A stretch of DNA of 45,275 nucleotides from a virus, in the IMG/VR virus record IMGVR_UViG_3300027996_000061, positions 1 through 45,275 of that record; one strand, written 5' to 3'. Below the pieces are notes generated by a model. That model was given only the letters and a program-made list of their open reading frames with translations, did not search any database and was not told where the DNA came from. Below, piece by piece: positions 3,587 through 42,536 of this stretch; position 1 is the first letter of the stretch; each line of letters starts with the position of its first letter. Both the position numbers and the translations under genes were made by a program.

Positions 3587-4294
3587 TCAGATATTGCACT
3601 CTTTGGTCTGACGGTCGATGTAGTTTTTGAGCGTCTTCAGTTCCTTTTGCGTCCGGCTGGGATCGTCAATGAACCGAGGGTTCTTCTTCATGCGCGCAAG
3701 GGGTGCCCGCAGACGAGTAGCGACCTGCTTGCTCATGTCGCTACTGGGGAAGTCAGACAGCAACGCGGCCATACCTTCCAGAGCCAAGAGGAGGTCCGGT
3801 GCATCATCAGCACGAATCTCAGCCAATGCGGTGTCGATCAGGGTGGCCATGTCCCGCAGCGCGGGCACACACCCAACGATTTCTTGCGTGCCCCAACCGA
3901 AACCAACTTCACGGTCCAGGCCGACCGGGTACTGACCGACCGGCTGGGTCTTGAATGCGTCTTTGTAGCCCTTGCGGAGCTTGGATTGGCCGTGCTTCGC
4001 AAGCAGTCGGAGCGCCTGATCATAGTCGAGGCCATCTTGGTTCTTGCTCTGCTGCCGTCCTTGACCCATCGCTCCCCACAGCTTCTTCAGCGTGTGGGTG
4101 CCCATGCGGTCAGGGACAACTGCCATCTCGTAGAACTTGGAGTGGTTCTTGGCTTGATCAATGTAGTACGCCATGAAGGCTTCGCCCTCACGGTACTTCT
4201 GTCGAGTGACTTCCGGCATGTAGGGCTTGCCAGCGGCGGTCTTGGTTAGCCCCTCTTGGGCGAGAATGCGACGTAGGCGTTTGGCCATGTTCAT
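3587..4294 (-). CDS. WGR-domain protein with shared N-terminal leader
   Basis: A 235-residue protein whose ATG lies six bases after GGAG. Residues 5-20 (KRLRRILAQEGLTKTA) are identical to residues 6-21 of the next gene upstream, although the rest of the two proteins is unrelated. Residues about 52-114 fit the WGR domain: SKFYEM beta strand, L-WG (residues 72-74, with Ala for the usual Arg), and a C-terminal KxxKGYKD block. WGR domains in PARP2/PARP3 bind DNA ends and nicks and signal damage; no ADP-ribosyltransferase domain follows here. The C-terminal part is helical. The leader resembles, in concept, the capsid-targeting sequences of T4 internal proteins, so I infer that this protein may be packaged and injected. 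The WGR call is by eye. Confidence 0.75.
   Translation of the reverse strand: MNMAKRLRRILAQEGLTKTAAGKPYMPEVTRQKYREGEAFMAYYIDQAKNHSKFYEMAVVPDRMGTHTLKKLWGAMGQGRQQSKNQDGLDYDQALRLLAKHGQSKLRKGYKDAFKTQPVGQYPVGLDREVGFGWGTQEIVGCVPALRDMATLIDTALAEIRADDAPDLLLALEGMAALLSDFPSSDMSKQVATRLRAPLARMKKNPRFIDDPSRTQKELKTLKNYIDRQTKECNI
4235..4282 (-). repeat. Shared leader-coding repeat, copy 2 (other copy at 4982-5029)
   Basis: These 48 bases encode the same 16 residues as 4982-5029. The two DNA copies differ at five positions (43 of 48 identical). All five are third-codon-position changes that leave Ala, Leu, Gly, Leu and Arg unchanged. Identity falls away immediately downstream, where the proteins diverge. Confidence 0.9.
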
Positions 4295-4332
4295 AAGAGA
4301 CTCCAGAATGTCTTGGGGGTTGAGTACGTCAT
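4291..4332 (-). CDS. Possible 13-residue coupling micro-ORF
   Basis: A 13-codon frame ending in TFWSLL overlaps the ATG of the WGR gene by ATGA. The 38-residue gene before the sister leader protein ends in the same way (TFWSQI, ATGA overlap). Its own ribosome-binding site is weak. It may be a coupling leader or a by-product of the shared TTCTGGAG ribosome-binding segment. Confidence 0.25.
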   Translation of the reverse strand: MTYSTPKTFWSLL

Positions 4333-4353
4333 CCCGTGTACTCTCACAGGGCG

Positions 4354-4367
4354 ATAGGCACGCTAAC
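4354..4367 (-). promoter_or_regulatory. Intergenic GTTAG-N5-CTAT motif (copy b)
   Basis: On the minus strand the sequence is GTTAGCGTGCCTAT followed by CGCCC. It lies ten bases after the stop of the 222-residue gene and 60 bases before the WGR gene. A short inverted repeat (GAGTAC...GTACTC, 4322-4343) follows it. Confidence 0.5.
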
Positions 4368-4375
4368 GAACGAGA

Positions 4376-5044
4376 TCAGCCCGACCCGTCCCGAGCGTGG
4401 ATGCGAGTGATTTCCAAGGCCATTTCTTTCGCCATCTTTTTGGGGTTGTGTTCGTCCTCGAACTCTTGATCGTCAGCGTTCTGGTAGTCCCACCACTTCG
4501 CGTTCCACAGAGCGTAGAAGTATTGAACCCTGTCGGCAAGGTCACCGTTCCGGTCTTCTTCCAGATAGGTCACTACCTCCACGGTGATCTTGTCTCGACC
4601 CTTTTGGCCTTTGATCTCCCCAAAGAACCGATTCCCGTCCTCAAACTCGGGATCTTTCGACTGTGTTCGCCAACCACTTGATTCCAGGGCGGTCTCCATA
4701 TCCGATAGGGCTTCCTCCGCAGACTCGTAGGCGCTGGCATAGACATCGCCGGGGTCGCTGTCGTAAGAGGCGAACCGCTTCCCCTTCATGTCGCGGAGCA
4801 CCTGCACCGCCATGCTGCGGGTTGGAATGTACTCGTACAGGGCTTCTGCGTCCTTGTCCGTCACTTCCTCCTCGATCTCGCTGATGGACACACCGTAGTG
4901 ATTCGCCACAGCCTTGAGGATCTTGGCCTTCATCGGAGCGGGGATGCTGGCGAGGTACTTCGCGTTGAGATCACCGCTACCAGCGGTCTTGGTCAGACCC
5001 TCTTGGGCCAGAATACGACGTAGGCGTTTGATGTCGATGCTCAT
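4376..5044 (-). CDS. Acidic protein with shared leader, candidate internal head protein
   Basis: A 222-residue protein with GGAG six bases before its ATG. Residues 6-21 (KRLRRILAQEGLTKTA) are identical to the leader of the adjacent WGR protein; the leader is basic and potentially amphipathic, whereas the mature part is strongly acidic. Residues about 26-75 form a helical domain with the pattern 'KILKAVANHYGVSISEIEEEVTDKDAEALYEYI', which reads like a compact helix-turn-helix-like bundle. Residues 80-220 are mixed alpha/beta (VEVVTYLEEDRNG) and end in an acidic helix. No enzymatic motif was found. The shared leader and position after the tail-fibre module suggest packaging in the head; this is inference. 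It could equally be a virion protein with a common docking helix. Confidence 0.75.
   Translation of the reverse strand: MSIDIKRLRRILAQEGLTKTAGSGDLNAKYLASIPAPMKAKILKAVANHYGVSISEIEEEVTDKDAEALYEYIPTRSMAVQVLRDMKGKRFASYDSDPGDVYASAYESAEEALSDMETALESSGWRTQSKDPEFEDGNRFFGEIKGQKGRDKITVEVVTYLEEDRNGDLADRVQYFYALWNAKWWDYQNADDQEFEDEHNPKKMAKEMALEITRIHARDGSG
4982..5029 (-). repeat. Shared leader-coding repeat, copy 1
   Basis: This is the partner of 4235-4282; it encodes residues 6-21 of the 222-residue protein. The only differences between the copies are five synonymous third-position changes. Confidence 0.9.
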
Positions 5045-5201: not shown

Positions 5202-8200
5202 TCAGTTCGCAGCCCGAATGAACCCGGTCGTTACGGTGGGAGCCACGATCTGCTGTCCGCCTTCCAAGATGAACTCGGTGCCGTCCAACTGACTGCCTCC
5301 CGCCAACAATGAATGGGCTTGCAGGGCCGTCAGACCACCCCACGGACCCAACCGTGAAGCCGTGACCGCTGCGTAGTCCACCAACTCGTATGCCGCGCCT
5401 CCGTTGCCGTTGATCGTAGCAGCCGCGTCCGGGTTCGGATCGACGGTAGGATCCGCAGAGGTCGGAGGCACGTTGTCGGACAACACACTCTGAATGTCGA
5501 ACGTGTCTGCCCGTGGAGTCACGTCATCCAACCGGAAAGCGAAGTCCTGGTTGATACCCATGCCACCTTCGGGCACTTCGCCAGACGGTCCACGTTGGTT
5601 CGGGTACAGAATTGCGGTGCCTGGGCCGAGATTGCCTCCAAGAATGAAGCCGCCGCTGGCTGTCAGGATCTTGGATTGGTTGAAGTGGCTCGCGGATCCC
5701 TTGATGGTAGGGGATCCTCGCCACGGTCCAGCGGGGCCTCCAGCAACAGTGTGTACATCCGTCGTGAAGTGACCGTCGATCTCAAGCGCGGCAAGACCTT
5801 GGCCGGGTCCGGGGCCGTCGCAAATCGTGGTGATGTGAACGCTGTCGCCGTCCTCTGTCTCACAGAACTGAAGGTCCGCGTAGAGGGAGTCCTCGTCATC
5901 CGTGAAGGTGACGACCCGAAGGGGATCGTTGAGGACCAATGACTCTGCATCGTCCAACACATCGTTCGGGTCATTGATCTTACTGCCTGCTACGACGGTG
6001 CGTTCGGCAGGCTGGCCCAAGTCCGAGGGGATGGGTGGTGTGCCCTCGTTGAGAACAGTGACCGTCTCCTCAAGCGGCTGATTGCACAGGTACTCCTGTG
6101 TGACGGGCTTCCCGACCGCAAACGTGACCGTGACCGGATGCTGATCCGAAGGCAACGGGGAGGACACGTCGAATTTGAGATCCTGCGTGATCTTGTCGAA
6201 GCTGTAGAGCAACGGCGAAACCACGGCTCCGTCCACCTGCACCACGAACACCCGGTCAGCGAAGATCGCGGAGTCAGGGACGTACACCAGATAAGGTGTG
6301 CGCGAAGTGATGGTCGCTACTTCAGGCGTTGTGTCTAGGTTGTACTCACCACTGGACAGCGTGAAGGCCCGGTTGAGGACCATGTTCTGCGGAGCGAGGC
6401 CGAAGCCGTCCGGTGCCCCTCTGATCCGATACCGAACCGAGTCCCACCGGGTTTGAGAAATCGCCCGAGAGTCGAGTGCGCCAAAGGCAACGGAACCCCG
6501 TCGGCTCTCGTAGGCAGGGAGATCCCCGTACTCGACATTGATCCACGCCGCTGCCGGGTCCGTTGTCTCCGAGGGGAGCGCCGTGCCAGGAGCGCCCGGA
6601 GGCAGCGGGAGATCGGGCCGGTAAACGGACAGCCCCCAGTTGGGGTCGAGGTACATTCGCACACGGCAAAAGGCCGTCCAGTCCATAGGCACCGCAGTGG
6701 CGAACAGGCTGGAGTTGAGTGCGTTCGTGCCATCTAGCCGAGGGATTCGGTATGAGTTGATGTCATCAACGCTAGGATCACCGCCCGTGGGCGTGCGGCG
6801 CAGGTAAACACCAAAGGTCCGATCAATGACTTGAGGGATGCCTCCGATTATCCGAGCAACAACCCGCAACGGAGTCGCACTCATGGAATCCAGCGTGACC
6901 GCACACGCTCCGTCTCCCGTCAACTCAAGAGCCGCCGTGAGGTAGGTCGTCGTCGCGTCGGGAGCGAAGCCTGCAAACGGGGTGGATCCAACGATGGCGT
7001 CATCAATGACGAGCACCACGATGTCGGCAACGGGATCACAGAGCAGACGGTAGGCATGAAACCCACCATCGTCCCATGCGAAAGCAAAGGACTGCACCAC
7101 TGCGTAGGCACTGTCTCGTAAATCAACGGTCCCGGTGCCTAGAGTCAGGTAGACGATGCGACGGAAGCCCGTAGAAGCCAAGGCACAAGAGCCACCAATG
7201 GCAATGCCGATGCCTCGCGTTCCATTGGTGTGCGACTGTACCGAGAAGCGAGACTCCAGAATCAGGCCCTCGTCATCCACCAACGTGCCGAAATCAGCGT
7301 TTTGACTCCATTGGGCGGTCTGTGTGGATGTCTTGGACAGTTCCAGCGTTTGCCCGCGTACAAAGGGAGCGGCTGTGGTGTTGCCTGGGTTCGCGGTCCA
7401 CCCCGCACCCACTGGCGACTGCAAGCCTGACAGCGACACATTGGGGCGCGTCGGGATCAACTGACGTTGGGTGGTGTTCGCAACGTAATGAAGCGTCGTC
7501 AATAACGATTGACGGGTCGTGTCCCGCAAGCGGTACGAAGCGTTGCCCGCTCCGAGGATCCCTGACTCCACAAGCAAAGTGGCCTCAGCGTCCGTGCGGA
7601 CCTTTGGCGTCAGGTACGGCTCTACTCGTTCATATGTGAACTCAACCGGGATGGTGGAATCACCCGAAGTGGCCTTGAGGAGTAGCTGATCCCCTGTGAT
7701 GTCCACCTGCGAGGTGCCGAAGTTGCCGACTCGATACCAAGGATCGTTCGGGTCGTCCTCTGGCAGCGTGTTCATCTCGGTCAACGCCGTGACGCCCTGC
7801 ACCGTGTTCGTGATCTGAACTGGGTCTGCAAGGTACTGCGTCAGATCCCAGACCGAGGTGGATTGGGCACGCCGGGACAAGCTGCCCCAGAACATGACGC
7901 CCTTCTCGGTGGCTGGGAGAAGCAGCGCCGTTTGCGCCGGGTACGGGGCGACCTCCGCAAGATCCGCGACCAGCCCTGAAATGCTGCCACCCAAGTAGAC
8001 CGCTGCCGATCCTGTGGGGAAGCTGGAGTAGACCCGGAACGAGATCAAGCCTACATTCCACAGTGTCTCAAAGAGAAGCGTGACTGCCCCCGCTCCAAAG
8101 GTGGCCGGGTCCGTTGGCAGCGCGGGTGAGAATGTGATTCCGACTTCGGTGCCATCCTCCGTGAGAGAGAGGCCACACGTTTCGATTGTGTAGACGCCCG

Positions 8201-10634
8201 CTTGAGGTCCGACAGCGATACGGAAGCGACCCCCCGGCTCGATGCCTGAAGGCAGGTCCGAAAAAGCCACTGTGATGGTCGTCGTCGAGGTGGCCGTGCC
8301 CGCTACAGAAGGGCCGATCTGCCAGCCTTCCTCCAAGTGGGTCTTGGTGCCGTCGAGGAGAACACCGACGTGCTGCACGCCGTCTACGAGAAGCGCACCG
8401 ACTACTACAAGATGCGCTCCGTCATGGAAGCCGAAGCCAACCCCCGTGTACACACCGTCTGCGGTGTACGACTCCACCCGGAACCGGGAGATGTCTGTGA
8501 CCTGAATGTCGAGCGACAGGTCCAGGTCACGCTTGTAGATGGCTGCCGTGCCCACCCCGTAAGGCCCCGTGGAAGCATCAATGACCCGATAGGTGCCGTC
8601 GCCAACCACGTTGCCGTCGTCTACACCGTCGAGGGTCCACGGAGTTTCAGCATTGGGGGGCGTGGTTTGGCCGTTAAAGACCCCACTTGCACGCAGAGCA
8701 TCCGCACTCAGCCCGCCTACGCCGATTGCATGGGGGTTCTGATTGAGAAGTAAGGTCGTTGGCTGATTGAGGAGTGCAGAGTAACCGCCCTTCTGCCAGC
8801 CGATGTACTTGTGTCCGATCTGCTTGGGGGATTCACGGCGATAAGGTCCGAGAGCCACACCCATCGGGAAACGGTTGGTCTTGACTGTCCCTGTGGCTCC
8901 GTCAGGCAGCGGAGACGGAACCCCAGCGGTGTGGCCTTGGCTTCGATCCCATGTGTTGAGCGTCAACCCCTGTGTGTTCAGGCCCACCAACTCCATCGCG
9001 GGATTCATAAACCAGATGTAGTCCACATCGACCGTGATGGTTCCCGCTACGGCAAGAGGGATCGGAATGGCGGGGTAGATTTCTCCGATGTAGGGGTTCA
9101 CTCCAGCGAGATCAATGGCCCCGCCGTCTAGTCGGACTTCCACGTCTTCTTTCGTGGCCGGGGTGTTGTCTCCCCACCCGCGCACCAGAGGTCCATAGCG
9201 GGTAACGATCTTGTCCCGAGTCAGGACCGCTGATCCCGTAAAGGGAGCGGTGAGTCCGTGAATGAAGTTCCAGGCGCTCGTAAACAGCGTTGAGGAAGCG
9301 GTGTTCTTGATCTCTTTCAGCTTGAACACGCTGACCGTGTGTGCGGTGCCGAGAACAAACGCCGCACCGGGGCCGAAAACAGCCGCACCGGTTGCACTGG
9401 CGACCGCGAACGTGTTCAACGGTTCCCCGTCGAACAGAACCGTGTAGAACACTCCCTTCTGGTTGCGAGCCAGAGAGACTGTGTGCTCTCCCAGCGTGTC
9501 CCATGCGGCCAGGACCGTCGCAGAGTAGGCACCCGAGGTGATGGTGATGGTCTTGATCCCAGCGGAATCAGAGAGCGTCAAGTCAACTTGGATCGCTCCG
9601 TCTGACACGGACATCGTGGCCAACGTGCTGTTAAACACAGCCGGTACGATGGAGGTTCCGGTCAGATCAAACTTAAAATCCATCCGGTAAGTGGTGCCGG
9701 GGATCATCCGGCCCGTGGTGTCTCCAAACGACCACCCGTACTGAACCCCCACCGCTTTGGTGAGCAGGAGTCCGTCGCTCATCGTCGCTACACTGGTTCC
9801 CGTGCCCACCACCACACCTGTCAGCGTGGGATCATCGTCGGGAAGGAGAACACCGCTGTAGTCGAACGCAAGCGACGGCCCTAGTGTCAAGTCGTAGACC
9901 GCACTCGTCATCGGATGTACGTCGAGGTCTACCCGAGAAGGCAGGGCCAGTTCTTGTGTAGCCGACCCAATGACGGGGGCTACTGGATACGTCGTGCTGA
10001 TCACATAGGAGGTAAGACTGTCCACCCCCGGTGAGAAATCAGCTTCGGGGAGCATGGCCTGGGCACCCCCAAGGCTGTTTTGGAAGTCGAGTTGGACTGA
10101 TCGCCCGTCGTCAGGCAAGGGGAGGCTGGCCGTCGCCGTCGCCGTGTCTCCTAAAGCGTAAAACACCACCATATTCGCAGGAGGGGGTCCAATCGGATTG
10201 CCTGCTACGTCCGTCAGACCGGTGATCGTCAGCGTGTGTTGACCTCCGAGTGTTGATCCCGTGTGAGTGACGATGACAGAGGAGTAGCCCAACCCGGAGG
10301 CTGTGCCCCTCGCCACCGAGACCGTCGAGATTGAAACGCCATAGGTGGTTGCGAAAGCATAAGAGGCCGGATTTATGAGGCCCGCGTCGTCAGCCATCGC
10401 CTCGGAGAAGAAAACTTCGACCCGATACCCGTCAAGAGCGTTGGCCCCTGTGGCTTGGGGAGGGGTGATGTCCACGGACCCGTAAGAGGCGTATCCATAA
10501 GGAGCACCACCATAGCCACCTTCGACGGGTACGGGCAGACGAGGGGAAACGCCCGACCCATACGGGGAATAGCCGTATGAGGCCCCTCCGTAGCCAAGGC
10601 CACCAAAGGTCAGTCCGGGAAGGTAGACGGGCAA
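5202..10634 (-). CDS. Giant virion protein (fibre/baseplate-associated), 1810 aa
   Basis: The start is a TTG at 10634, five bases after GGAG, giving MPVYLPGLTFGG. No better in-frame ATG exists near the ribosome-binding site. Residues 1-53 are Gly/Tyr-rich with repeats of 'YGGAxYGYxxYGS'. Residues about 55-165 match a bacterial Ig-like (SbsA/Big_5) pattern: VEVFFSEAM, then NPASYAF, then LTITGLTDVAGNPI. The middle and C-terminus are all-beta, with jelly-roll-like segments resembling concanavalin-type folds (YTVLFDGEPLNTF, HAYRLLCDPVADIVVLVIDD). No catalytic motif, signal peptide or membrane segment is evident. It is the last large gene of the adhesin module, so a role as a long fibre or baseplate-attached host-recognition protein is likely but not proven. 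Confidence 0.85.
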   Translation of the reverse strand: MPVYLPGLTFGGLGYGGASYGYSPYGSGVSPRLPVPVEGGYGGAPYGYASYGSVDITPPQATGANALDGYRVEVFFSEAMADDAGLINPASYAFATTYGVSISTVSVARGTASGLGYSSVIVTHTGSTLGGQHTLTITGLTDVAGNPIGPPPANMVVFYALGDTATATASLPLPDDGRSVQLDFQNSLGGAQAMLPEADFSPGVDSLTSYVISTTYPVAPVIGSATQELALPSRVDLDVHPMTSAVYDLTLGPSLAFDYSGVLLPDDDPTLTGVVVGTGTSVATMSDGLLLTKAVGVQYGWSFGDTTGRMIPGTTYRMDFKFDLTGTSIVPAVFNSTLATMSVSDGAIQVDLTLSDSAGIKTITITSGAYSATVLAAWDTLGEHTVSLARNQKGVFYTVLFDGEPLNTFAVASATGAAVFGPGAAFVLGTAHTVSVFKLKEIKNTASSTLFTSAWNFIHGLTAPFTGSAVLTRDKIVTRYGPLVRGWGDNTPATKEDVEVRLDGGAIDLAGVNPYIGEIYPAIPIPLAVAGTITVDVDYIWFMNPAMELVGLNTQGLTLNTWDRSQGHTAGVPSPLPDGATGTVKTNRFPMGVALGPYRRESPKQIGHKYIGWQKGGYSALLNQPTTLLLNQNPHAIGVGGLSADALRASGVFNGQTTPPNAETPWTLDGVDDGNVVGDGTYRVIDASTGPYGVGTAAIYKRDLDLSLDIQVTDISRFRVESYTADGVYTGVGFGFHDGAHLVVVGALLVDGVQHVGVLLDGTKTHLEEGWQIGPSVAGTATSTTTITVAFSDLPSGIEPGGRFRIAVGPQAGVYTIETCGLSLTEDGTEVGITFSPALPTDPATFGAGAVTLLFETLWNVGLISFRVYSSFPTGSAAVYLGGSISGLVADLAEVAPYPAQTALLLPATEKGVMFWGSLSRRAQSTSVWDLTQYLADPVQITNTVQGVTALTEMNTLPEDDPNDPWYRVGNFGTSQVDITGDQLLLKATSGDSTIPVEFTYERVEPYLTPKVRTDAEATLLVESGILGAGNASYRLRDTTRQSLLTTLHYVANTTQRQLIPTRPNVSLSGLQSPVGAGWTANPGNTTAAPFVRGQTLELSKTSTQTAQWSQNADFGTLVDDEGLILESRFSVQSHTNGTRGIGIAIGGSCALASTGFRRIVYLTLGTGTVDLRDSAYAVVQSFAFAWDDGGFHAYRLLCDPVADIVVLVIDDAIVGSTPFAGFAPDATTTYLTAALELTGDGACAVTLDSMSATPLRVVARIIGGIPQVIDRTFGVYLRRTPTGGDPSVDDINSYRIPRLDGTNALNSSLFATAVPMDWTAFCRVRMYLDPNWGLSVYRPDLPLPPGAPGTALPSETTDPAAAWINVEYGDLPAYESRRGSVAFGALDSRAISQTRWDSVRYRIRGAPDGFGLAPQNMVLNRAFTLSSGEYNLDTTPEVATITSRTPYLVYVPDSAIFADRVFVVQVDGAVVSPLLYSFDKITQDLKFDVSSPLPSDQHPVTVTFAVGKPVTQEYLCNQPLEETVTVLNEGTPPIPSDLGQPAERTVVAGSKINDPNDVLDDAESLVLNDPLRVVTFTDDEDSLYADLQFCETEDGDSVHITTICDGPGPGQGLAALEIDGHFTTDVHTVAGGPAGPWRGSPTIKGSASHFNQSKILTASGGFILGGNLGPGTAILYPNQRGPSGEVPEGGMGINQDFAFRLDDVTPRADTFDIQSVLSDNVPPTSADPTVDPNPDAAATINGNGGAAYELVDYAAVTASRLGPWGGLTALQAHSLLAGGSQLDGTEFILEGGQQIVAPTVTTGFIRAAN

Positions 10635-35927: not shown

Positions 35928-37886
35928 CTATGGCTCCCGGTCAAACACCAGCATCGGCTCCCGCGCCTTCTCGGGAGAACGATTCAAACGAGCGAGAGGC
36001 ATCCACACACGCCCACGGAAGCTGAAACCCTCCTCCAAAGCCGTCTGAATCGTCCGAGCCACCAACGGGATCGTCTCACTCCCCCTACGAATGTCAGCCA
36101 CGTTGAGTACCAGAGTGGGAGCACGCTTGTACGCGGTAGCGATGACCGGACGCAGGAAACCCTCTACCCAAGCATCGAAGTCCGACCCGTGAGACACCCA
36201 TGACTGATCACCCCGGTCGGAATACTGCTCCCGATCAAAGTACGGGGGAGAGGTGAACACGAGATCAACAGGGCCGGGGTCAAACCGCTCCGCAGGGCAC
36301 TTGTGAACCTCGGATGGCCGGGAGCACCCTAAACGCTCTGCCAAGGCTCTGTTGCCCTCCACTGTCTCTGGTTCCACGTCTGTGGCGACGTACCGAACAC
36401 CAGCGACGAAAGCCCCGAGAAGACGCCCGCCGTACCCGGAACAAGGATCCCACACCGAACCTCCGGGCGGGCAATACGTCTCGTAGACCCACCGCGCCAC
36501 CGTAGGCCGGAACACGCCGGGCGTGCGGTGGCGCATAGTCACCGCACGCAGTACCCGGTGAGGAAGCACAGGGTCGCCTGCGTCCAACTGGAAGCGAACT
36601 GCCCACCGAAGCACCTTGTCGTCGTGCCATGCCTCGTAGGCCGTCCTCTTCCCACGAGAGGCCGCCTTGTATCTGTTGGGAAAGTAAGGCAGACACGCTC
36701 GATTACCCGACACCGACCACGGGTACAGAGTCTCGTTCTCCACCCGGTACGAGGTCAACCGAACCAACTCCACTTCCCGGTTGAACTTTTTGTCTTCCAA
36801 TGGAAGGGGTGCGGGGAACCCTGTGCCTCTCAGCACGGCAAACGCCTCCTCTACTTGCTTGTCTTTGGCGGTTTCGGAAAGAGTCGCCCACACCTTCGGG
36901 GAATATGCAGCCAACACCTCATCTGCGGCCTCCCTTGAATACGTCCGTGATCTCCTGCCTTGACTCCGAAGGGTCGCACCTCCTGCCAGCACCCGCCTCT
37001 TGGCTGTCGATCTGCCTACCCCATACAAGGAAGCAAGGTCATCAAGAGATAGACCCCCTTCATACAGCACCCGTGCCCGTTCGGGGATCAACTGCTTGGC
37101 GTTTAGATCCACCTTGCGGCGTGGTGTGTCCTCCGAGGGCAGCTTGTAGGACATGCAATCAGGGACATGCGGGGAAACCAAGCTGTAGAACTCTCGGTCT
37201 TGACCGGGGAACGTGATTGTGTGCGTGCCACACTTGTCAGGCTGTGCTTTGGGTGTCAGACCAAGCCGACGAATCGCCCTGATTGCTCTCTTTAGGCTCA
37301 ACGGGTCAAGGCCAAACGTGATTCGGGGATGGTAATGAGCCATCAAACCTCCATCGTCCATGAGCCACACAGCCAACGCAAGTGGAGTCAGACGCTTGTA
37401 GAGGTCCGAGGGAAATACCCGTTTCCTTTCAGGGGCCGGATAAAACAAGTCGTACCACTCCCGCATGTGAGTGCTGGCAACGCCTGTCAAGCGTTCCCCG
37501 TGGTACACCTTGTCTCCGTCCCGCTTGATTGTGGGAGAATACGAGGACACATGAGGACCGAGAATATCCCCCTTCCAATGGAGGTAGGCGGACTGCTTGA
37601 TCGAATGAGACTCACAGAAGGCTGCGGTAGCTGCGCTCGGGGCGACCATGTACCCGTCGCCCAAGAGAGATCCCAACACCAGTTCACGCTGCCGGTCAGT
37701 CAGGGCTGGAAGGGCCGCCGTGCGACGACCCGTCTTTCCGACGGTCGGGATCCCCCACTTATTCCGAAGCCGGTTGATCTTGACTTGGTACGTCCCGTAC
37801 CTCTCCGCAATGACGTTCTCTGGGAGAAGGTCATTGACATAGAGGCGTCGGAGGGTTTCGGGCGTGAGGTCAGAGAGGTCAAGCAT
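35928..37886 (-). CDS. LAGLIDADG homing endonuclease fused to DNA methyltransferase
   Basis: The best start is the ATG at 37886 (652 residues), since the longer form would begin inside a terminator. Residues about 8-50 resemble a helix-turn-helix. Residues about 62-250 form a two-motif LAGLIDADG endonuclease of the intron-encoded type: LVLGSLLGDGY (69-79) and LALAVWLMDDGG (169-180), both with the acidic catalytic position. Residues about 270-305 hold a second helix-turn-helix. Residues about 375-652 are a methyltransferase: YFPNRYK, DPCSGYGGRLLGA (motif I, AdoMet binding), TDVEPETVEGN, and FTSPPY (motif IV, the amino-methyltransferase type, N4-cytosine or N6-adenine). The fusion could cleave, and methylate to protect, its own site. 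It sits after the capsid terminator with its own promoter. Confidence 0.9.
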   Translation of the reverse strand: MLDLSDLTPETLRRLYVNDLLPENVIAERYGTYQVKINRLRNKWGIPTVGKTGRRTAALPALTDRQRELVLGSLLGDGYMVAPSAATAAFCESHSIKQSAYLHWKGDILGPHVSSYSPTIKRDGDKVYHGERLTGVASTHMREWYDLFYPAPERKRVFPSDLYKRLTPLALAVWLMDDGGLMAHYHPRITFGLDPLSLKRAIRAIRRLGLTPKAQPDKCGTHTITFPGQDREFYSLVSPHVPDCMSYKLPSEDTPRRKVDLNAKQLIPERARVLYEGGLSLDDLASLYGVGRSTAKRRVLAGGATLRSQGRRSRTYSREAADEVLAAYSPKVWATLSETAKDKQVEEAFAVLRGTGFPAPLPLEDKKFNREVELVRLTSYRVENETLYPWSVSGNRACLPYFPNRYKAASRGKRTAYEAWHDDKVLRWAVRFQLDAGDPVLPHRVLRAVTMRHRTPGVFRPTVARWVYETYCPPGGSVWDPCSGYGGRLLGAFVAGVRYVATDVEPETVEGNRALAERLGCSRPSEVHKCPAERFDPGPVDLVFTSPPYFDREQYSDRGDQSWVSHGSDFDAWVEGFLRPVIATAYKRAPTLVLNVADIRRGSETIPLVARTIQTALEEGFSFRGRVWMPLARLNRSPEKAREPMLVFDREP

Positions 37887-37892
37887 GGGCGT

Positions 37893-37921
37893 ATTGTACC
37901 ACCTCCAGAATATGACCACAA
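37893..37921 (-). promoter_or_regulatory. Sigma-70-like promoter of the endonuclease-methyltransferase gene
   Basis: On the minus strand TTGTGG, 17 bases, then TACAAT (37916-37921 and 37893-37898). Only six bases separate TACAAT from the ATG, so the transcript may be leaderless or nearly so. GGAGG lies further upstream inside the spacer. It does not resemble the GGTAG-N5-CTAT motif used elsewhere. Confidence 0.5.
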
Positions 37922-38004
37922 ACGTAAACACTCTCCCGTCACAAAACCAACTCGACCAAGCCAAGTCGCTGGGTTGTCGGCACCGCTTCGATACACACAC
38001 CTAA

Positions 38005-38084: not shown

Positions 38085-38957
38085 CTACGGGCGAGTGATG
38101 ATCAGGCGAGTCAAACCACGGGGGTTGAAACAGCCGATGCCAATGTTCTCGAAGACCGAGAAGCCAATGGTACGGGCCTTGGGATCATCAGCCGAGAGCA
38201 CGGTCAACTCGGTACGGACAGGCATCCGACCAAAGTTCTCAGGCTCGCAGGCCACATACACCGTACCGACCGGAACCAGACGAGACACGATGATCTGAGC
38301 GCCCCAGAGGGTCGCCATCAGGCCGGTCTTGAGCAGGTCACGCTGGGATTCGATGTCGAGAATGTCACGACCGAACTTCCGCAAGTCAGCGTAGTCACGA
38401 GCATTCATAAACACGCGAGCAACTCGCAGGTCATGGCGCTCGATCAGGCTGAACGCATCAGCGAGAACATCACCAGAGATCGGAGCGACCACAGGGATGT
38501 CAGCGTTGACGTTGCCGAGGCTGTCAAAGCCGTTGACGGCAACAGCGTCGAGGGTTGCGAACACGCGCTCATCTTCAGCAGCCTGAATCTGGGCACGAGC
38601 GAGATCCTGTGCCCGTTCAATGAGGTCGAAACGACGCTCTTTGATCTGGGTCAGGGGGATCTCGGGGTTCGACGCAATCTCGAACAGTGGGAAGATCACA
38701 CGACGAGGCTTGGTGACGGCGATGATGTTCTCGCCTTCCTCGCCAACCACGAACGCGGTCACGTCCGGGTCTTTGTCGTAGATCGGCAGGGCACCATCGG
38801 GCAACTGCTCGACAAGGAAGGTCTTACGACCGACTGCCATGTAGTCGCGACGGAGGCGCAGGGGTTGAGTCATTGAGGCGGCGAGCTTTGCACGACCAGA
38901 AGCACTACTGATGTAGTCGCTGATCAGCTTCGCCTTCACTGCATTTGTTACAGACAT
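38085..38957 (-). CDS. Major capsid protein (HK97 fold)
   Basis: A 290-residue protein with GGAG seven bases before its ATG. The N-terminal arm (residues 1-35, LISDYISSASGRAKLAASM) precedes a core opening RLRRDYMAVGRKTFLVEQLP, then DGALPIYDKDPDVTAF and VGEEGENI. Other features are a long spine-like helix (RFDLIERAQDLARAQIQAAEDERVFATLDAV), a P-domain-like FMNARDYADLRKFG segment and a C-terminal YVACEPENFGRMPVRTELTVL region. This is the usual pattern of HK97-fold capsid proteins from phages with small coats plus decoration proteins. Position directly after the protease, scaffold and decoration genes supports the call. The N-terminus may be cleaved by the prohead protease. Confidence 0.85.
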   Translation of the reverse strand: MSVTNAVKAKLISDYISSASGRAKLAASMTQPLRLRRDYMAVGRKTFLVEQLPDGALPIYDKDPDVTAFVVGEEGENIIAVTKPRRVIFPLFEIASNPEIPLTQIKERRFDLIERAQDLARAQIQAAEDERVFATLDAVAVNGFDSLGNVNADIPVVAPISGDVLADAFSLIERHDLRVARVFMNARDYADLRKFGRDILDIESQRDLLKTGLMATLWGAQIIVSRLVPVGTVYVACEPENFGRMPVRTELTVLSADDPKARTIGFSVFENIGIGCFNPRGLTRLIITRP

Positions 38958-38993
38958 TGGATTTCTCCGAAGGTTTTGAAGGTTGAAGGTTGA

Positions 38994-39626
38994 TCAGACG
39001 CGCTGGTCGAAGACGATTTCAGGCTGCACGGCATCAGCGGGCATCTTGAGGATGCCCATGATGTAGCTTTCGGCACCAGCCGGAAGCGCAGCGGTGTACT
39101 CATCAGCCGCGAGGTTGGTGAGATACCCATTGCAGGAGGCAAACAGAATGTCGCCCGTGGTGTACACCAGAGCGGCGTTCGACGTGAGATTCTGCGTCTC
39201 AAAGAGACTGCTCGCATAAGTGCCTTGACCCGAGACGTAAGGCCCCTTGTCAGAAGCAATACCGGGCTGGTTCTCAAAGTCGTTGCCGACAGCGGTGTTG
39301 ATGAACACGCCCAAGGGGCGGACACCATTGACACCGACAAGTGCTGCGGGGTTGGCAGCAGCCGCCGTGTTGGAAGGCCCACCGATTTCATTCGAGCCAC
39401 CATCGGGGCGAGTGAACGCCACGGACCCGGAGAGAACTCCGAGAGTCGCTGTGTTCATACCGTTGGAGGTAGAAACGGCAGCGGCGGTGGAAATGCCGGG
39501 GGGGTTGGTCTGGGTGAAGGCATCCAATGTGAGGGTACCGACACTATTGCGAATTCCGACGTGGAGTAGTCGTAGAGCACTGCTGCTCTCGGTCCATCCA
39601 CCACTCGCCTGTCCAAGCAAAGGCAT
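38994..39626 (-). CDS. Probable capsid decoration/stabilisation protein
   Basis: A 210-residue protein with GGAG seven bases before its ATG, lying 36 bases upstream of the capsid gene in the same transcript. It is Ala/Gly/Thr/Asn-rich and predicted to be all-beta: SSSALRLLHVGIRNSVGTLTLDAF, VFINTAVGNDFENQPG and YIMGILKMPADAVQPEIVFDQRV. No homologous motif is certain. Abundance and position suggest a head decoration or cement protein, produced in high amount with the capsid. Another possible role is a fibre on the head. Confidence 0.65.
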   Translation of the reverse strand: MPLLGQASGGWTESSSALRLLHVGIRNSVGTLTLDAFTQTNPPGISTAAAVSTSNGMNTATLGVLSGSVAFTRPDGGSNEIGGPSNTAAAANPAALVGVNGVRPLGVFINTAVGNDFENQPGIASDKGPYVSGQGTYASSLFETQNLTSNAALVYTTGDILFASCNGYLTNLAADEYTAALPAGAESYIMGILKMPADAVQPEIVFDQRV

Positions 39627-39828: not shown

Positions 39829-41067
39829 TTAGAAGAACTTGCTCACGTCGGGAGCCGATTCCCAGAGCTTGCTCAGGTCATTGACTTCGGACGAAGCCGC
39901 CTTGGAAACACCACCGAGTCGGGTAGCGCCAGTGCTGGCCTTCTTGGGACGGGGGCGAAGGGAAGCCTTCTTATCCTCCGCCTCATGTTCGGCGTCCTCT
40001 TGGATGGTCTTGGCTGCTTCAGCCTCGGCATCCTCTTCCTTCTCATCGGCGGCACCGCGTTCGTTGAACAGCTTGGCGAGGACCATCATTTCGTCGCCTT
40101 CGACATCCATGACACCCATAGGATCACCCATAGGATCACCCATCAACTCCTCGTCGTGGTCCATCAACTCCTCGTCGTGGTCCATCATTTCCCCGTCGTC
40201 CATCGACAAGTCGCCTTCCTCGGCCATCATCTCCTCAAGGAGCATTTCGTCGAGCATTGCGTCATCGTCGCCCATAGAGGGGTCCATGATCGGGGCGTCC
40301 AGCATCCCTTCTTCAAGGAGCATTTCGTCCATCATCTCCTCGTAGTTGGCCTTCTTGGAGTCTTCCGCTTCATGCTCGGCGTCCTCTTGGATGGTCTTGG
40401 CGGCCTCGGCCTCAGCGTCCTCTTCCTTCTCATCACCAGCGAGGCGAGTCAGGACACGTTCAATGCGAGCGATACGACGCTCAAGAGGGGAAGCACTCTT
40501 GGACTTGGCTTCTTCTTCGTCGTCATCGTCGTCATCGTCGTCGTCATCGTCGTCACCGGGGTCTTCGCTCTCGGCCAACTTGGTTAGGACGCGCTCAAGA
40601 CGGGAAATGCGTCGGGAAGCACTCTTGGACTTGGACTCCTCGACATCCTCGTCCTCGTCTGCGTCCTCGTCCTCGTCTGCAACGCGAGCAAGGCTGGCCT
40701 TGACCGCACGGTCAGAGAGGTCCATAAGGGAGAGGGCCTGGTCCTCAATAAGAGCAACCGAAGCGCCCTTGGGGAGCATCGCAGTAGCGATACGGATGCA
40801 CTTGGCAGCCTTGCGTTCCAGCGCGGCAGCCTTGTACGCCGGGGAGGCGGGGCCTTCGTCGGGGTACGCGGGGTGCTCGCTGTTGGCGTAGGGACCGGGG
40901 TGGGGATCCTCGGCCCAGGACGAGGTGTCGCCATTCTCGTAAGCATTTGCAGCCGGATCAGGGCCGCCGTAAGCGGGGGAAGCCGCGCCCTCGTCAGGGG
41001 TTGCGGGGTGTTCTGAGGCTCGACGCTGCCGAACCTCACTGTCGTTCCAAGTCATACGCTTTCGCAT
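39829..41067 (-). CDS. Acidic repeat-rich scaffold protein
   Basis: The start is the ATG at 41067 (MRKRMTWNDSEV), six bases after GGAG. The 412-residue protein is extremely acidic, with a run of 12 Asp encoded by GAC/GAT tandem codons. Several segments are duplicated: SEHPAxPDEGxASPAY (near residues 15-70), SASxxxxRxERVLTKLA (two copies), a 22-residue block containing AKTIQEDAEHE, DEMLLEE and HDEELM. Such composition suits an internal scaffold that must be expelled or proteolysed. The C-terminus (NDLSKLWESAPDVSKFF) may bind the capsid protein. It follows the prohead protease. Some blocks show the R-L-x-R-x-L pattern found in the shared leader of the two candidate internal proteins. Confidence 0.8.
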   Translation of the reverse strand: MRKRMTWNDSEVRQRRASEHPATPDEGAASPAYGGPDPAANAYENGDTSSWAEDPHPGPYANSEHPAYPDEGPASPAYKAAALERKAAKCIRIATAMLPKGASVALIEDQALSLMDLSDRAVKASLARVADEDEDADEDEDVEESKSKSASRRISRLERVLTKLAESEDPGDDDDDDDDDDDDEEEAKSKSASPLERRIARIERVLTRLAGDEKEEDAEAEAAKTIQEDAEHEAEDSKKANYEEMMDEMLLEEGMLDAPIMDPSMGDDDAMLDEMLLEEMMAEEGDLSMDDGEMMDHDEELMDHDEELMGDPMGDPMGVMDVEGDEMMVLAKLFNERGAADEKEEDAEAEAAKTIQEDAEHEAEDKKASLRPRPKKASTGATRLGGVSKAASSEVNDLSKLWESAPDVSKFF

Positions 41068-41084
41068 GATGTTCTCCAAAGGTT

Positions 41085-42536
41085 CTAGGTGAGTGGGTTG
41101 TTAGTACCGGCCCATTGAGCCAGTAGGGTGCCGACCCGGACAACAACCCGGATTTCGGCAGAACTGAGTTCCCGGCCCGCTGCCTTACGGCAAGCGAACA
41201 GATAACGGTCAGATGATGAATAATCGGTCGGGATCCCAGCAGCCAAGGCAGTCCGATAGACTTCCCGGCTGGCGTGGACACCATAAGAAGCATTGATTCG
41301 GGCCGCTCCCTCCACCACCGCAGCGGGAGAGGATGCAACGTGAACCAATGTAGCAAGGGTCGTAGCGTACCGACGCTGTGAAGCGCGCTTGGAAGCGGCC
41401 TCTTTGACCAAGTTGTCATTTGGCTCCATCGCCGGTTCTGGCTCGGCCAGTTCCTCGATGTTCTCTTGGGCCAGTTCCTTTTCAATGCGTTCGCGTACAC
41501 GGCTTTTCAGCGACTCATATACGGCGTCTTCGACATCTTGGAAGGGAATCTTCTCGTCTTCGGAGGGGGTATCGCCGCCCTCGTCATCACCATCCTCTCC
41601 AAAATCAAACGCGGTACGGGTGTACGCCTGTGAGGGGACAGATAGATTCGCGGCCTTGGCGATGGCGCTGTCTGACCACTGAGGGGGAGGTGAAGCAAGC
41701 ACCTTACGGATCTGTTCCCCTGAAACCTCTCCCGGTGAGAGGATATTACGCATCACCGCACCGGGAAACGCTGGAACAGCGACCCATGACGCCTCGATGA
41801 ACTTGACTCCACCGGGAGCTTCGGGATTCTCATCGAAGGTCTGGTGACCACAAAGCTCTGCGATGACTCGCTTCTGCCCTGTCTCGTCCATGAACGTATT
41901 GAGCTTCGCGTACTTGATATGGTCGCAAAGCTGCGTCTCATCCACGGCGAAGTGCCCACACTGGGAGCACACCGTGAAATCGGTCGTGCAACCCATCGAG
42001 AGGGTCGCCAGCTTCCCTGCTTCAATGTCCTGCACAAGTCCAGCGTGTTTACGGTCGGTGGCAACGAGGATGTCGATGTAGAGGGAGTCACCGATGTCGC
42101 GTGCTGCGGCGTCGATGATCCGGCCCTTCGACTGGTCCTCGATCTGAACGTGCTCACGGAAGTTGTGCGCTCCAATGAACGTGGGGTACGCCATCCGAAG
42201 CACGGAACGGCTCCAGGAGTCTCCGTTGTTGTTCACATACTGGGAGCATTGGGGCTTGATATGGTAATCAGCCCACCTCCGATTGACCGTCGTGGACCCG
42301 ACCTTGATGTTTCCTAGCTTCACGCCAGACACGTCATCCACGTCTACCGAGGCGACGATGGTGCAGTGAGTGACGAGATGCGTGTCCGAATTAAGGTTGG
42401 TGCCGAGAATCTCACGGGCTTGATCAGTCAAGTTCCGACTGGACCCTGACGAGGCAATCTTCCGAATGCCTCCCCATCCCTGATACGAGATCCGAGGGTG
42501 GACCACCATCGCATTGGCTCGTTTGAGGAATGCCAT
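41085..42536 (-). CDS. Prohead protease with embedded zinc finger
   Basis: A 483-residue protein overlapping the upstream gene by one base (TGATG). Residues about 113-185 fit the phage prohead-protease pattern: AYPTFIGAHNFREHVQIEDQ (His 124 candidate) followed by a strand-rich DSLYIDILVATDRKH and the nucleophile block LATLSMGC (Ser 180). Residues 190-206 add a zinc-finger-like C-x2-C-x10-C-x-H motif (CSQCGHFAVDETQLCDH). The C-terminal 190 residues are acidic and helical, and may act as a scaffold-like tail. It should mature the prohead by cutting scaffold, capsid N-terminus and possibly leader peptides. The family call is by eye. Confidence 0.8.
   Translation of the reverse strand: MAFLKRANAMVVHPRISYQGWGGIRKIASSGSSRNLTDQAREILGTNLNSDTHLVTHCTIVASVDVDDVSGVKLGNIKVGSTTVNRRWADYHIKPQCSQYVNNNGDSWSRSVLRMAYPTFIGAHNFREHVQIEDQSKGRIIDAAARDIGDSLYIDILVATDRKHAGLVQDIEAGKLATLSMGCTTDFTVCSQCGHFAVDETQLCDHIKYAKLNTFMDETGQKRVIAELCGHQTFDENPEAPGGVKFIEASWVAVPAFPGAVMRNILSPGEVSGEQIRKVLASPPPQWSDSAIAKAANLSVPSQAYTRTAFDFGEDGDDEGGDTPSEDEKIPFQDVEDAVYESLKSRVRERIEKELAQENIEELAEPEPAMEPNDNLVKEAASKRASQRRYATTLATLVHVASSPAAVVEGAARINASYGVHASREVYRTALAAGIPTDYSSSDRYLFACRKAAGRELSSAEIRVVVRVGTLLAQWAGTNNPLT

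Follow-up and report, generated by a model that had tools for sequence, protein, structure and literature searches.

Why would two neighbouring phage genes start with the same leader peptide when the proteins behind it show no likeness to each other? The stretch of DNA in question (the window) is a 45,275-base IMG/VR record of a tailed phage, probably a fragment, and both open reading frames possess an ATG start codon, a GGAG ribosome-binding site and homologues in relatives. As the preliminary description had stated, the leader, KRLRRILAQEGLTKTA, is present in both proteins after the first few residues; it was put forward as a candidate for a system working like the capsid-targeting sequence (CTS) of T4 internal proteins, in a phage equipped with a prohead protease and a scaffold. 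Both head components were recovered, the protease by a PHROG match and the scaffold by position and composition, and the capsid, decoration, scaffold and protease genes share one strand in an order kept across relatives (Table 1). The tagged genes lie in the same run as a long tail-fibre-like gene (5202-10634) that precedes them. Pfam assigned the WGR domain of the 235-aa protein to PF05406 (E=7e-8, 32.9 bits vs. a cut-off of 22), and AlphaFold predictions for the two window proteins were of low confidence (mean pLDDT 48 and 53) and too weak for use. Next to the capsid gene, a further gene (35928-38000, minus strand) encodes a LAGLIDADG endonuclease domain (Pfam E=1e-18), its product also giving weak methyltransferase-like matches.

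Table 1. Leader copies, tagged proteins and head genes in the window.
Feature	Position	Strand	Remarks
Leader copy A (tag 1), KRLRRILAQEGLTKTA	4982..5029	-	residues 6-21 of the 222-aa protein
Leader copy A, predicted cut after KTA	4982-4990	-	
Leader copy B (tag 1), KRLRRILAQEGLTKTA	4235..4282	-	residues 5-20 of the WGR protein
Leader copy B, predicted cut after KTA	4235-4243	-	
222-aa tagged protein	4376..5044	-	conserved domain at ~residues 22-93
235-aa tagged protein, WGR domain	3587..4294	-	
Head maturation (prohead) protease	41085..42536	-	PHROG 18299, E=6e-12
Scaffold (presumed), acidic, repetitive, between protease and capsid genes	39829..41079	-	position and composition
Major capsid protein	38085..38957	-	PHROG 2522, E=3e-53; clade marker
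Probable capsid decoration protein	38994..39626	-	conserved beside the capsid gene

The two leader copies differ at five of 48 nt, and a recount agreed with the earlier statement that all five are synonymous third-position changes; with 29% of single changes expected to be synonymous, the probability of finding five out of five is about 0.002. Outside the leader, similarity at the DNA level is gone (15/60 nt upstream, 18/60 nt downstream). Between the proteins there is an 18-residue match (E=3e-6 within the window record) and, as the leader also recurs in relatives, chance is excluded as its source. The two proteins had been called unrelated, which holds insofar as no likeness extends past the leader, but in two relatives they are fused into one: L003 (429 aa) and L004 (316 aa) each join the conserved domain of the 222-aa protein to the WGR protein, with a single leader. 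A leader on each of the separate genes in the window is what would be expected if every sorted polypeptide needs a tag. Searching directly by pattern for relatives of the 222-aa protein returned none.

A profile built from both window leaders and their relatives (tag 1; consensus LRxILAxEGL) was used to look in relatives for other proteins starting with this peptide, which the preliminary description had envisaged, and detected it on many unrelated proteins. At the extreme N-terminus it was found in 10 proteins of IMGVR 2788500025_000001 (G1), three of 3300012953_000012 (G2) and four of 3300033182_000487 (G4); the fifth of the five copies in G4 is a second one at the C-terminus of an N-tagged protein. 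Orthologous tagged cargo in the window, G1, G2 and G4 retained the tag. Codons vary between copies and the peptide stays constant, and this persistence on many proteins, together with the purely synonymous changes in the window, bears out the earlier view that the peptide itself is under selection. Judged by eye, the product of G1 52086-53774 (L009 12086-13774) appears to have a Dps/ferritin-like N-terminal part, fused to another domain, which in G4 (38718-39563) has a tag at either end. Separately, an intergenic element like GGTAGCGTGCCTATC occurs in the window at 4367 and 5197 (both minus strand) and at many sites in G1 and G4, ~10-120 nt upstream of many genes, tagged and untagged alike, and may represent a phage promoter.

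In IMG/VR, no fewer than 498 contig stretches encode a relative of the window capsid protein, the best 80 of these matches having at least 85% identity over the matched segment, on contigs of up to 618 kb. Among isolated phages, capsid relatives are remote (identity about 50% in Tunturi_5 and about 38% in Bacillus phage G), and LR745208, a metagenome assembly of 485 kb, shows 85% capsid identity. The phages with tag 1 also contain a longer tag 2 (TAxDRSALIRLASTLPVGSxERRAILAGL), mostly N-terminal and sometimes C-terminal, but also internal, with three or four copies within proteins of 750-1,010 aa. Tag 3 (LRSKLIRLAHxNPELRPHLLPLL) occurs in LR745208, G26 and G28, and tag 4 (MRRSASEIIRNLEMRIARLERQA and variants) in G22 and G23. 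De novo all-against-all comparison yielded a terminal tag as the largest group of short protein-protein matches in G8, LR745208, G26, G28, G22 and G23, in the last of which this group also includes a pentapeptide-repeat-like family. By profile counts, seven of the eight contigs of at least 200 kb (G008, G021-G027) harbored 11-31 copies of at least one tag and G021 (618 kb) a single weak match; seven contigs had been picked by their capsid gene, G008 being no independent sample, since it was first found via its tag 2. Within the clade, taken as phages sharing this major capsid protein at 85% identity or more, other members bear sequence-different tags on about 10-30 proteins each.

The earlier placement of the leader at N-termini applies to many of these proteins, but tags are also C-terminal or inside long proteins. 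Several internal tags beside [KR]xA (see below) were seen in long proteins of 756-1,238 aa (G1 20717, G2 189641, G4 36262, L100 2678-5701 and G28 28184), some with ParB-like parts, that look like multi-cargo precursors. Tagged genes occur within head clusters as well, e.g. between the decoration and scaffold genes (LR 398171) or right behind the capsid gene (G10 32870).

Beyond the clade, tag searches detected no such tag in Tunturi_5, and phage G had no N-terminal tag in a de novo comparison over 400 kb and none in its whole record with tags 1 and 4; the tags are therefore not needed to build such heads. Consensus searches of 50,697 sequenced phage records gave no match to tags 1 and 4, retrieved tag 3 from LR745208 only, and returned for tag 2 weak matches, almost all within DNA polymerase genes. 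No description of these tags was found in the literature searched, from which most subscription journals and preprints were absent.

Masking the tags and then comparing the cargo revealed homologous proteins under different tags. The WGR cargo follows tag 1 in the window, in both G1 and G2 and in the homologues L003 and L004, tag 3 in G10_96843 (MNLRIACIKLAYEKPELRAHLLPLLKEA), and in G22_78106 an internal tag 4 that precedes the WGR part. The domain of the 222-aa protein is joined to tag 2 in G8_285824 (TSDDRKILVRYASTLPSGSPERKAVLAGL). Likewise, the cargo of G1_57487 has tag 1 in G1, tag 3 in G26 and G28, and tag 4 in G22, while G1_58189 carries tag 2 and its homologue G22_185067 tag 4. Some cargo homologues had no recognised tag, e.g. 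G1_52086 and G10_32241. The preliminary description had named as a point that could count against it the occurrence of leaderless homologues in relatives possessing the same protease; such homologues were found, but mostly with that phage's own tag in place of the leader. Cargo thus does not bring its leader along by descent and in most cases bears the tag of the phage concerned, and such swaps between homologues favour a sorting function. As for the cargo itself, Pfam recognised 10 families among 100 tagged proteins, mostly as weak single matches, including WGR (four members), YunG (two), the phage L5 gp82 family and a ParB-like nuclease domain. Mostly unrecognised cargo would be expected from rapidly changing host-interaction proteins and is by itself no proof of such a role.

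What distinguishes the cargo side of the tags is the motif [KR]xA. It was present within 15 aa past the tag in 75 of 88 N-terminal tags as compared to 12.8% of untagged N-terminus windows (Fisher p~1e-49, related tags being counted as independent and the motif having been noticed before it was tested); the reversed motif, used as a control, was present in 29/88. No nearby [KR]xA was found for 13 of the 88. Its distance is nearly fixed for tags 3 and 4 but variable (0-11 aa) for tags 1 and 2, where the motif is thus more than a mere portion of the conserved tag. C-terminal tags were preceded by [KR]xA in 8/9 cases against a background of 29%, although numbers are small and one of the eight is weak, and the motif thus tends toward the cargo side of the tag. 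The residue after the A was G, S or A in 50 of 75 sites.

The same motif marks the scaffold and the protease. When all residue pairs were enumerated, without recourse to the tags in the case of scaffolds and proteases, [KR]xA came first past the tags (z 14.9) and led the non-acidic motifs of the scaffolds (z 10.5); in the proteases it ranked second (z 8.1), behind a Cys-x-His motif. Across nine genomes (34-506 genes each), the scaffold ranked 1-3 and the protease 2-10 by [KR]xA excess (first and second, respectively, among the 34 genes of the window), these enrichments not being independent because the proteins are homologous across genomes. Capsid and decoration proteins, the latter serving as negative control, showed no [KR]xA excess. 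The simplest reading would be that [KR]xA reflects the specificity of the clade's prohead protease, which would cut the scaffold, itself and the tags. A phiKZ-type AxE cut inside the leader, between the E and G of ILAQEG, was plausible at first and was rejected, as the motif is not enriched in scaffold or protease: each scaffold or protease had 0-7 [AGS]xE[GAS] sites, in no case significantly more than its shuffled versions. This count, together with the absence of any pair ending in an acidic residue from the top motifs past the tags, likewise spoke against a T4-like cut motif ending in E. The phage G capsid protein in PDB 6wkk is essentially full length in sequence and uninformative on the mature N-terminus.

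Inspection of individual proteins yielded several further observations on the protease and [KR]xA. In Tunturi_5, where tags were undetected, the two most [KR]xA-rich proteins are the presumed scaffold and one other (278679-280265 and 302827-304518), which suggests that the protease specificity predates the tags. A conserved-looking family (..GSNYMMDGF..; LR 414655, G22 8726, G26 144144, G23 257191, G1 81683) ranks with the proteins richest in [KR]xA in each genome and is a candidate for a further head protein cut by the protease. Near their C-termini, the proteases LR 399989-401413 and G26 158327-159844 carry a segment (EARTLIRLASLL and EARTMIRLASLL, respectively) that resembles the start of tags 2 and 3; with such a tag-like segment, the protease may reach the head much as the cargo would. 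In G4, the prohead protease gene (101640-104435; L044 1640-4435) has an apparent intein, encoding 931 aa vs. about 480.

The tag, in short, is a peptide under selection that occurs on many unrelated proteins and is exchanged among cargo homologues; at its end it bears a motif enriched in scaffold and protease. We consider it likely that the leaders are removable head-targeting peptides for cargo, comparable to the T4 CTS but with a different apparent protease specificity. Under this proposal, the leader would be a two-part sorting peptide composed of a short amphipathic helix, KRLRRILAQEGL, and a [KR]-x-A site (KTA). The helical part would draw the fresh protein into the assembling head, probably via the inner core or scaffold. 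As the motif suggests, the phage's prohead protease would cut at KTA when the head matures, whereupon the tag would be lost, and the cargo (the WGR protein and its neighbour) would, by analogy, stay inside the particle and exit with the DNA into the next host. Relatives would use the sequence-different tags 1-4 for the same job, exchanging them between homologous cargo.

Docking to a partner other than the head, such as a replication or transcription complex, the membrane or an intracellular compartment, would be an alternative role for the tags, with [KR]xA forming part of the docking helix. We regard it as unlikely: tags do occur N-terminally, C-terminally or inside long proteins, which is also true of docking motifs, tags 2 and 3 have the look of small helical hairpins, and tagged genes are scattered over the genomes instead of being confined to head genes, but [KR]xA sits on the cargo side, at variable spacing for tags 1 and 2 and before eight of the nine C-terminal tags, and a docking helix would hardly be shared by a scaffold and a protease, both of which are enriched in it. 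Less probable still is that head targeting holds but the tags stay uncut, the [KR]xA-rich segments binding the scaffold or acting as linkers. Composition-preserving shuffles failed to yield the observed [KR]xA excess, even though scaffolds are low-complexity proteins containing lysine and alanine; and while sequence cannot show cleavage, the preference for G/S/A after the A is what a protease site would be expected to show, and both T4 and SPN3US couple head targeting or propeptides to the prohead protease. We give almost no credence to a recent local duplication (by recombination or as a gene-start cassette) devoid of sorting function, for although DNA identity between the window copies is 90% and related leaders elsewhere are more diverged, likeness stops at the leader, all changes are synonymous, and recurrence of tag 1 on many proteins in relatives with diverse codons, retained or swapped between homologous cargo and conserved at the peptide level, rules out an isolated duplication.

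The reading of the leaders as T4-CTS-like head-targeting peptides that would be cut after LTKTA survived the available tests and drew strong indirect support from the many tagged proteins per genome, the swaps and the [KR]xA at the tag end. What did not stand is a likeness to the scaffold: the leader scored z=1.1 against its own scaffold, and similarity of tags 1, 2 and 3 to their own scaffolds was rejected (z -0.2 to 1.5). For tag 4, matches to scaffold helices were obtained in the window, G1, G4 and G8 as well as in its own G22 (z 3.3-6.4); these may reflect a generic coiled coil.

Head targeting by short peptides has precedents. In T4, the internal proteins IPI-IPIII have a CTS that is removed by the prohead protease gp21, and for IPIII ten N-terminal residues, which the protease removes, are enough for packaging (PMC9026906). 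The parallels comprise a short N-terminal peptide on otherwise different proteins, its division into a targeting part and an apparent protease site, the presence of scaffold and prohead protease in the phage, and varied, poorly conserved cargo (PMC9026906). In contrast to T4, whose site ends in E, the apparent site here is [KR]xA, tags are also C-terminal or internal, several interchangeable tag families exist in one clade, and cargo numbers reach about 30 per genome; moreover, targeting and cleavage are experimental in T4 and inferred here. The tags also look unlike the T4 CTS. Encapsulin cargo-loading peptides are likewise short and modular and load unrelated cargo into an HK97-fold shell, but, unlike the tags, they are C-terminal, attach straight to the shell and are not known to be cleaved off by a maturation protease.

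SPN3US, a phiKZ-like phage, is another huge phage whose head and ejected proteins have N-terminal propeptides; these are mostly long (111-254 aa, with two of 20 and 24 aa), and its gp245 protease cuts after A-x-E and removes its own propeptide (PMC10052503). There the propeptides are not described as a shared tag (PMC10052503), and in the present phages neither scaffold nor protease is enriched in A-x-E. Phage P1 offers a further N-terminal packaging signal, since the first 30 residues of DarB suffice to route a reporter into the capsid; in the part of the source consulted, the signal is described for DarB and no multi-protein tag family is reported (PMC9024508). The likeness to the T4, phiKZ-like and P1 systems would lie in the way of working, and we do not claim kinship by descent.

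The preliminary interpretation was probably right in kind and would extend to clade-wide exchangeable tags with a common cut site. On balance, we lean towards the broader view that this environmental clade of huge phages has an open loading code, in which lineage-specific, interchangeable tags, placed at either terminus or separating the domains of long multi-cargo proteins and most with a cargo-side [KR]xA, would load tens of unrelated proteins per phage into the head, to be released by a prohead protease of neither T4 nor phiKZ specificity, the injected set being readable from the genome. Little is known about which proteins huge phages bring into cells. Should the tags prove to be head-loading leaders, sequence would be enough to list what is injected by a large, uncultured group of phages (at least 498 IMG/VR capsid-gene matches), and, as most tagged proteins have no known function, they would be candidates for host-takeover or anti-defence factors. 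The same reading, if true, would add a new prohead-protease specificity and provide ready-made peptides to load foreign proteins into large phage heads.
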